45,942 nucleotides of DNA from the NCBI GenBank assembly GCA_903929475.1, contig CAIYUV010000217.1:1-45942 (forward strand), in the 5' to 3' direction. Positions 18,189 through 45,767 of this stretch are shown piece by piece. Source of the DNA: an uncultured Spartobacteria bacterium. Its GTDB lineage: Bacteria; Verrucomicrobiota; Verrucomicrobiia; Chthoniobacterales; Chthoniobacteraceae. Made by a program: the position numbers and the translations under genes. Each line of letters opens with the position of its first letter. Position 1 is the stretch's first letter. The notes beneath the pieces are model-generated. The model was not told where the DNA came from and did no database searches. It worked only from the letters and a program-made list of their open reading frames with translations.

Positions 18189-18527
18189 AAAGTGAGTGGT
18201 TTTTGTGACAAACAAAGCCGCACTCCGTTCAATGTCAGATTCCCGCCCAAACGCACGCGCTTAAAACAGCCCTCACTCGAATTGTAATAGACCGCCTGAG
18301 GGGTGAATGGCGGCGATGTTCGCTTCGCAGCCTCATGCGTTCCTGTTTTTAACAGCCTTTTCATTTGCACACGCGACGGGGGCGTGAAAATTGACGCCAT
18401 GAATACACAGCCATATTCATCGAGGCCCCGCTGGGGCAGGCTTTGGCGCTGAGGAAGTGACAGCTTCATCGGCGGAGGCGGGAGCTTGGGGCTGGGAGGC
18501 GGGTTTCCCGGTGGAAAATACGGGCGC
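18189..18527. other. Intergenic region upstream of degP, no gene seen
   Basis: About 340 bp between the degP start and the first 21-bp array cassette. I see no convincing coding frame, RNA gene or hairpin terminator. Because degP is read leftwards from 18188, its promoter should lie here, but I could not assign -35 and -10 elements with any certainty. Confidence 0.4.
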
Positions 18528-18791
18528 TTCAGAGAAAATGGCAGGTTTCTCCCTGTTTTCCGCAGTTGCATCGCTGTCTTCCGCAATTGCGTCGCTGTCT
18601 TCCGCAATTGCGTCGGTGTCTTCCGCAATTGCGTCGCTGTCTTCCGCAGTTGCGTCGGTGTCTTCCGCAGTTGCGTCGGTGTCTTCCGCAGTTGCGTCGG
18701 TGTCTTCCGCAGTTGCGTCCGAGGCGGAGACAAGTCCCTCCCGACGGAGGGAGATGATGGCTTTTTGCGAAACGAGCGCTTTGCGCCGGTG
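18528..18791 (-). repeat. Array cassette 1: eight 21-bp tandem repeats with flanks shared with cassette 2
   Basis: Eight contiguous 21-bp units fill 18556-18723. Units 2-4 contain the perfect palindrome CGCAATTGCG; the other five carry a one-base change (CGCAGTTGCG). The last unit diverges at its end. Inside the array the only other regular variation is G/C at one position. The unit has no stop codon in any of six frames, so long open frames on both strands here are not evidence of coding. Flanks 18760-18791 and 18528-18558, read on the minus strand, resemble the flanks of the array at 45514-45702. The minus strand is given as the orientation that matches cassette 2. The FN3-like gene starts 65 bp beyond the cassette on the other strand. 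Confidence 0.85.
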
Positions 18792-18855
18792 GGGGCTGGG
18801 TTTCCCGGCTCCCTGCGGCCCCTTCGAGAAAAACAAAACATAAACACACAAACAC

Positions 18856-19497
18856 ATGAGCATACACACACCACAATTGAGGGTCTCCCTTGCGTTCGCA
18901 GAGGGGACCGATTTCACCGTCGAGAAGCTCGCAGGAGTGCTTCTCGTCTCACTGTATGGGAACGTCAATTACCCCTCGCCACCCTTCGCCAGCACTGTGC
19001 TGGATACCGCGCGCACTGAATTCCTGGATGCGATAGACCTCGCGGATAATGGCGGCAAGGCGGCCACGGCGGAAAAGGACAGCAAACGGGAGGCGCTCCT
19101 CGTATTGCTCCGTCAGCTAGCCGCCTATGTGCAGACGGCCTGCGGCAACGACATGGCCAAGCTGCTTTCCAGCGGCTTCAACGCCGTGAGCACCAACAAC
19201 GCGCAGTCGCCGCTGGCGACGCCGGTCATCAAAACCATCAAGCCCGGCATGAGCGGACAGTTGCTCGTGACGGTGACGGCGGTGAAAAACAGGAAGACCT
19301 TCGAGTCGCGCATCGCCCTCATCGGCGCCGGTGGTGTGCCCGGTCCGTGGCAGGACAACGGCCTTTTCAGCAACTCGCGCGCAATCCCATTCGATGGTCT
19401 CACGCCCGGCTCGACGCATATGGTGCAAGTCCGCGCCGTCGGCGGCAGCACCGGCCACAGCGATTGGAGCGACCCCGTGAGCCACATGGCCATGTGA
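18856..19497 (+). CDS. Small FN3-like domain protein next to the 21-bp array
   Basis: A 213-residue soluble protein with no signal peptide. The N-terminal half (about 1-110) is predicted helical and includes LLVSLYGNVNYPSPP near 29. The C-terminal half (about 118-213) looks like one fibronectin type III domain, with VKNRKTFESRIALIG, the FDGLTPGSTHMVQVRAVG strand pair and the closing WSDPVSHMAM. I recall proteins of this build (GN-a-N-F/Y-P-[TS]-P near the start, FN3 at the end) occurring repeatedly in Verrucomicrobia; function unknown. It starts 65 bp from array cassette 1 and is read away from it. A hairpin with a T-rich tail follows the stop. Confidence 0.8.
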   Translation: MSIHTPQLRVSLAFAEGTDFTVEKLAGVLLVSLYGNVNYPSPPFASTVLDTARTEFLDAIDLADNGGKAATAEKDSKREALLVLLRQLAAYVQTACGNDMAKLLSSGFNAVSTNNAQSPLATPVIKTIKPGMSGQLLVTVTAVKNRKTFESRIALIGAGGVPGPWQDNGLFSNSRAIPFDGLTPGSTHMVQVRAVGGSTGHSDWSDPVSHMAM

Positions 19498-19543
19498 GCA
19501 GCGGAGGCAATTTCCTCCACGCACCAAGCGCCCGCATTTCACC

Positions 19544-19578
19544 AAGCCGCACGGCCCGCGCTGTGCGGCTTTGGTTTT
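19544..19578 (+). terminator. Hairpin with T-rich tail after the FN3-like gene
   Basis: A 9-bp perfect stem (AAGCCGCAC paired with GTGCGGCTT) with a 10-base loop, followed by TGGTTTTT. It lies 47 bp after the stop of the FN3-like gene and before the convergent PEP-hydrolase-family gene. This looks like a rho-independent terminator for the plus-strand transcript, though the T run is interrupted. Confidence 0.6.
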
Positions 19579-19638
19579 TGGCAATGGGTGGAGGCCGCAG
19601 GCTGCGAGGGGAGTTTCGCCTCCGGCGAAATGGCTGCC

Positions 19639-45399: not shown

Positions 45400-45767
45400 C
45401 ACCGGCACAAAGGGATTTCCTCGCAAAAAGCGGTGATTATTTTCGCAGGGCGCAAACATTCCGCATCCGTGGACGGGCGTTTCCCCGCCCCGCCGATAGC
45501 TCCCCCCGGTTCTCCTAAAACTTTAAATGCTCCGTCTAAAACTTTAAATGCTCCGTCTAAAACTTTAAATGCTCCGCCTAAAACTTTAAATGCTCTGTCT
45601 AAAACTTTAAATGCTCTGTCTAAAACTTTAAATGCTCCGTCTAAAACTTTAGATGCTCCGCCTAAAACTTTAAATGCTCCGTCTAAAACTTTAAATGCCC
45701 CGTCTAAAACTAAGTCCGAGCCGCCGGAAACCGCGTCCAACAGAGAAGAACCCGCCTTTTCCCCTAA
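45400..45767 (+). repeat. Array cassette 2: nine 21-bp tandem repeats with flanks shared with cassette 1
   Basis: Nine full 21-bp units fill 45514-45702, then a partial tenth that diverges after AAAACT. The conserved core is AAAACTTTAAATGC; variation is limited to single C/T or A/G changes. The unit has stops in two of three frames on each strand and is open in one frame per strand, so coding is not favoured. The left flank 45400-45431 matches cassette 1's flank in 25 of 32 positions without gaps, including CACCGGC, CAAAG and TCGCAAAAAGC. The right flank 45738-45767 (AACAGAGAAGAACCCGCC onward) also resembles its counterpart. AT-rich repeats set in GC-rich DNA make the array stand out. Confidence 0.85.

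Follow-up and report, generated by a model that had tools for sequence, protein, structure and literature searches.

Self-complementary 21/22-bp repeat arrays of hypervariable sequence upstream of an FN3 gene family in Verrucomicrobiota: candidates for a helically phased cis element

A small gene of an uncultured Spartobacteria bacterium is preceded by eight tandem units of 21 bp, some of which carry a 10-bp palindrome. The locus lies in a stretch of 45,942 nucleotides (contig CAIYUV010000217.1), which is here referred to as the window. In the original prediction the spacing of two helical turns was taken to put each palindrome on the same face of the DNA, as in operator arrays, iterons and partition sites. 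The question raised by this locus is what is actually maintained in such an array, the palindrome, a reading frame, an RNA or the spacing itself, and what it might do for the gene behind it. The features of the locus are compiled in Table 1.

Table 1. Features of the repeat locus and of its second copy in the window
Feature	Position	Strand	Basis
Dispersed cassette: leader peptide, array, linker, FN3 gene, terminator	18336..19579	+	Shared homology bounds of copies
Short ORF (leader peptide), 17 aa, MNTQPYSSRPRWGRLWR followed by stop	18399..18452	+	Codon differences over seven copies
Array of eight 21-bp units	18553..18720	+	TRF: 18553-18719, period 21, 8.0 copies, 95% match; units read out to 18720
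Conserved linker from array to gene; GC-rich hairpin-like stretch and A-rich leader	18721..18855	+	Kept in C174, C289, C55, C112, C138, C200 and G007:C48
FN3 gene P0001, 213 aa: N-terminal helical domain, C-terminal FN3 domain	18856..19497	+	Profile, AlphaFold, Foldseek, dN/dS
Terminator-like hairpin AAGCCGCAC...GTGCGGCTT, T-rich tail	19544..19579	+	Read directly; homology of C174, C55 and C112 stops at hairpin end
Second cassette array, unit GGAGCATTTAAAGTTTTAGAC, FN3 gene missing after linker	45515..45711	-	TRF; unit and linker as in C55 (has gene) and C216

A 21-bp array with this degree of match between units is far beyond chance, and the predicted array is real. The perfect palindrome CGCAATTGCG was found in units 2-4, i.e. 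in three of the eight units, and units 5-8 carried CGCAGTTGCG with a single change, both as predicted. Unit 1, however, carried CGCAGTTGCA and was two changes away from CGCAATTGCG, not one. By direct reading neither the unit nor the unit junctions contained TAA, TAG or TGA on either strand, which confirmed that the unit is free of stops in all six frames. The palindrome by itself is weak evidence, since about 2% of random circular 21-mers (21/4^5) should contain a perfect 10-bp palindrome and since comparison with column-permuted units yielded P=0.05 in one test and P=0.8 in another. The symmetry of the window's own array is thus weak and at best borderline.

Comparison within the genome (4.5 Mb, 295 contigs) revealed roughly a dozen loci with related arrays, some complete and others partial, most of them on different contigs. 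Homology between copies begins at ~18335-18360 and stops at ~19578-19602, so that the window array forms the middle part of a cassette of ~1.24 kb. The 17-aa ORF at its start was found at six loci of this genome and at one locus of a second genome (G007), always in array cassettes or remnants thereof. Among these seven copies, pairwise codon differences were 79 synonymous versus 43 nonsynonymous in-frame, compared with 18/92 and 5/102 for the two alternative frames. An exact search of named genomes with the leader-peptide DNA gave one match, a Chthoniobacteraceae MAG, which makes the organism a verrucomicrobial relative of this MAG. Contig C172, with the leader-peptide part of the cassette, apparently overlaps the right end of the window.

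The array units of the other copies were very different from those of the window, yet all were 21 bp long. The unit was GGAGTTTCCTCCGAGGCGGAC in C174, GTTGTCTCCATGACGCAGACG in C138, C26 and C289, and GTTACGGAAGAGGCTCCCGTA in C200; that of C112 contained GGAACATTCC, and GGAGCATTTAAAGTTTTAGAC was shared by C55, C216 and the second array of the window. C251 carried the unit of the window, without the perfect palindrome: all of its seven units were identical, with CGCAGTTGCG in each and CGCAATTGCG in none. A sequence-specific operator array was not supported, as CGCAATTGCG occurs in 3/8 units here and 0/7 there, and the units of other copies are unrelated. A lack of conservation of unit length or palindrome had been named as refuting the original prediction; of the two, the unit length proved to be conserved and this palindrome did not. 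In C251 (L053) the seven units remain despite a deletion that removed the FN3 gene from between the linker and the terminator region, and in C200 (L061) the array frame has been joined by a deletion to the C-terminal portion of FN3, resulting in one open frame of 248 aa.

The product of the downstream gene, P0001, belongs to the FN3 domain proteins as judged by sequence profile and predicted fold. Its profile matched fibronectin chains (E about 3e-16) over profile positions ~110-194, the AlphaFold model had a pLDDT of 87, and a Foldseek search with it retrieved FN3 domains; the single-sequence score against Pfam PF00041 was 15.1, below the gathering threshold of 25. No family in NCBIfam or PADLOC was matched by P0001, and one weak match only was obtained in PHROG. 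Several copies of the gene are broken or deleted. The dN/dS values of 0.35-0.59 against paralogues and of 0.16-0.25 among close homologues elsewhere indicate that the gene is under purifying selection. An origin from a virus, phage or plasmid was rejected, with neither the protein nor the units matching any phage, plasmid or viral contig.

Homologues of the FN3 gene are patchily distributed: searches detected them in 34 of 213 genomes of the order and, for a second family of the class, in 32 of 68. The upstream DNA of 123 homologues was taken. In 99 of these the strongest periodicity was 21, 22 or a near multiple at an identity of at least 50%, compared with none in shuffled DNA. With a stricter cut, 21/22-bp arrays were found in 87 of 122 upstream regions versus 9 of 240 control tiles taken elsewhere in genomes with the gene (P=7e-44), an enrichment of ~20-fold among loci that share some descent and are not all independent. 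The upstream arrays had a median of 15 units (6-25) and were located a median of 232 bp ahead of the start of the homologous gene. No downstream array was found at 14 testable loci; where both sides could be tested, the constant spacing of about two turns was seen upstream only. Samples totalling 320 kb from relatives in which no FN3 gene was detected contained no 21/22-bp array (Fisher 0.006 vs 9/240). The surveyed genomes are drafts, and many cassettes end at contig breaks.

Arrays away from FN3 genes occurred about once per 45 kb in genomes with the gene, and arrays persist where the gene has been deleted (C251 and 45515 in the window). Some of the arrays elsewhere, though not all, adjoin genes with similar features, such as a PYRWDSPNLTW leader at L250 and a helical-looking protein at L245. 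Short tandem arrays with a period of 7 bp were also noticed in some genomes (GATTGCG, CAATCCG, ATTTCAG, ACCAGTC and TTTCAGT at L071, L126, L234, L236 and L251). Recurrent neighbouring families look like XRE regulators, tyrosine recombinases and restriction subunits. FN3 loci adjoining genes that, judged by eye, look like integron-type tyrosine recombinases or type I restriction subunits were L160, L155 and L217 as well as L185, L135, L204 and L212. Neither the integron integrase nor the Y1 transposase was retained as a driver of the arrays, as the distribution of neither gene follows them. No earlier description of such arrays was found in Rfam, where a search of the window returned only a tRNA, in NCBIfam, in PADLOC or in the open literature searched. 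The 21/22-bp arrays upstream of one small Verrucomicrobia protein family are apparently a large, undescribed set.

Across 94 arrays the period was 21 or 22 bp, with occasional steps of 20-23, and the unit sequence differed at almost every locus; the 22-bp period was mainly found in one family. The predicted two-turn spacing thus held at the family level, where it alone is conserved across arrays of unrelated sequence. Reading frames fared differently. The hint of coding in the original prediction, a frame with synonymous changes, was based on two sites, and the family lacks codon periodicity: variability with a period of three was detected in 3 of 77 arrays at P<0.05. Translation into a coiled-coil peptide is suggested by the frame 18457-18843 of the window, which reads as (V/L)SSA(V/I)AS heptads whose changes are conservative, and by related frames open in several copies. 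Openness was raised on the minus strand too, however, unit 6 of C174 carries an in-frame stop, and 22-bp arrays and steps of 20 or 22 break the frame. Together with the absent codon periodicity this led us to reject heptad-repeat coding, which we regard as highly improbable.

Self-complementarity beyond that of column-permuted units was present in 47 of 94 arrays at P<0.05, and predicted folding was better than that of column-permuted arrays by a z of about -2 on both strands. These permuted arrays replaced an initial hairpin comparison with gene DNA, which was unfair because GC differs. The arms also covary. When columns were redealt among units folding was weakened (mean z -0.88 and -1.34, P=3e-6 and 2e-9), and the same test on arrays already column-permuted gave a z of about 0. 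An earlier pairwise covariation test with a fixed axis and arms of up to 15 found nothing, so the signal depends on longer-range arms, for example between neighbouring units. At the family level part of the operator claim is consequently retained: dyad symmetry is enriched and covarying and the arrays precede a gene, although CGCAATTGCG does not qualify as a specific operator.

Hairpin potential above the null, covarying arms and the order leader peptide - repeats - gene would also be expected of an array acting as RNA. It would lie in a transcript, between leader peptide and FN3 gene, and would either control the mRNA as a row of hairpins or serve as the repeat-RNA partner of the protein, similar to type III toxin-antitoxin systems. 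Tolerance of G-U pairs predicts that the sense strand is then the more stable one, but no strand preference was seen in folding stability (P=0.28), and the other strand had, if anything, the stronger covariation (P=0.012). Furthermore, a clear T-run is missing from the linker hairpin, the array has no match in Rfam, and profile, AlphaFold and Foldseek gave FN3 and helices for P0001 with no RNase fold. Self-complementarity is clear against column-permuted arrays but strand-neutral, and sense-RNA hairpins were therefore rejected; we consider action as RNA unlikely. The lack of a strand preference argues for action as DNA.

A DNA-binding partner is suggested by an XRE-HTH gene, which at 13 loci of one family is located between the array and the FN3 gene. 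This order, a 22-bp array followed by the XRE-HTH gene and the FN3 gene, was seen at L206, L199, L197, L209, L215 and others in the second family (f18). The palindromes in the units and the position of these genes directly past the 22-bp arrays would fit operators for cognate XRE-type repressors whose specificity diverges locus by locus. However, over the 13 loci XRE sequence was not correlated with unit similarity (Mantel r=-0.04, P=0.63), no HTH gene was detected within ~1.6 kb at most of the 21-bp loci, and arms differ among the units of one array. Such operators appear quite improbable.

The main rival to a cis element is a product of mutation with no function. Slippage would expand the units and template switching would mend imperfect arms, leaving arrays that are self-complementary, covarying, strand-neutral and drifting. 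Template switching is known to make and maintain stems and to yield compensatory changes (PMC8794818), in accordance with the arrays lacking strand bias. In line with this, the C251 array is homogeneous despite the deletion of its FN3 gene, and orthologous arrays of G001 and G006 vary by gain and loss of units and by patchy multi-base changes while their genes are 98.9% identical. A purely mutational origin leaves unexplained, however, the strict period of 21/22, the enrichment upstream of one gene family and the absence from the sampled relatives lacking FN3. Overall we judge it possible, but rather doubtful.

The persistence of spacing and self-complementarity through a complete turnover of the sequence suggests that shape or phasing of the DNA counts for more than sequence. 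We therefore favour, tentatively, a helically phased cis element that acts at the DNA level, is read by its shape or symmetry and controls the downstream gene. The array family consists of non-coding rows of ~6-25 self-complementary units with a period of 21-22 bp in the putative promoter or leader region of a gene for a helical bundle with FN3 domain. Each unit may represent a weak dyad or a hairpin-prone site, all on one face of the DNA, and a dimeric or structure-reading protein might occupy the row cooperatively, with the number of units tuning expression of the gene. Against this cis element we counted that a sequence-specific site would hardly be expected to show compensatory changes within one array, that arrays also occur away from FN3 genes or outlive them, and that most 21-bp loci, including the window, have no XRE gene detected nearby. 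Less probably still, these arrays and the helical/FN3 family could constitute a new class of shape-recognized elements, spreading as compact Verrucomicrobiota cassettes and possibly forming a regulatory or conflict (defence/toxin) module. If the reading as a phased cis element is right, about a hundred natural examples upstream of one protein family have kept spacing and symmetry with the sequence free, and it becomes testable whether a regulatory site can be specified by nothing but DNA shape, the propensity to form hairpins and helical phase.

Several known systems share parts of this architecture. In the type III toxin-antitoxin system ToxIN, ToxI repeats of ~36 nt form an RNA and are followed by a terminator and a MazF-like RNase toxin. 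The tandem repeats upstream of a small gene are similar, but the protein here is of the FN3/helical type; with no sense-strand preference, no RNase fold and empty PADLOC and NCBIfam searches, the arrays were not assigned to this system. Plasmid iterons are direct repeats of 17-22 bp at about two-turn spacing that are bound by Rep. The arrays resemble them in repeat type and spacing but are present at many loci per genome, differ in sequence between loci and are tied to the FN3 gene. For the suggested iteron or partition site no support was noticed: inspection by eye showed no Rep or Par gene near the arrays, and the dozen or so loci of this genome lie mostly on separate contigs. REP/BIME palindromes with their Y1 transposases are likewise short and dispersed through the genome, and occur in Verrucomicrobia (PMC3733652). 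REPs, however, share one palindrome per genome and GTAG/CGTC tags, in contrast to the locus-specific units found here, and no Y1 transposase was found in the array-rich genomes G016 and G037; membership was rejected on the units and on the distribution of Y1_Tnp. Dimers of BvgA~P bind at Bordetella promoters every 22 bp, i.e. every two turns, on one face of the DNA and at weakly similar sites (PMC7250471). Those are a few non-identical sites with a known regulator, whereas the arrays described here are tandem and homogeneous and have no known BvgA-type regulator. Both share the spacing of about two turns, the weak sequence similarity and the position upstream of a gene. The strand neutrality, this BvgA-like combination of two-turn spacing with free sequence, and XRE regulators that do not track the units lead us to prefer, tentatively, a phased cis element.
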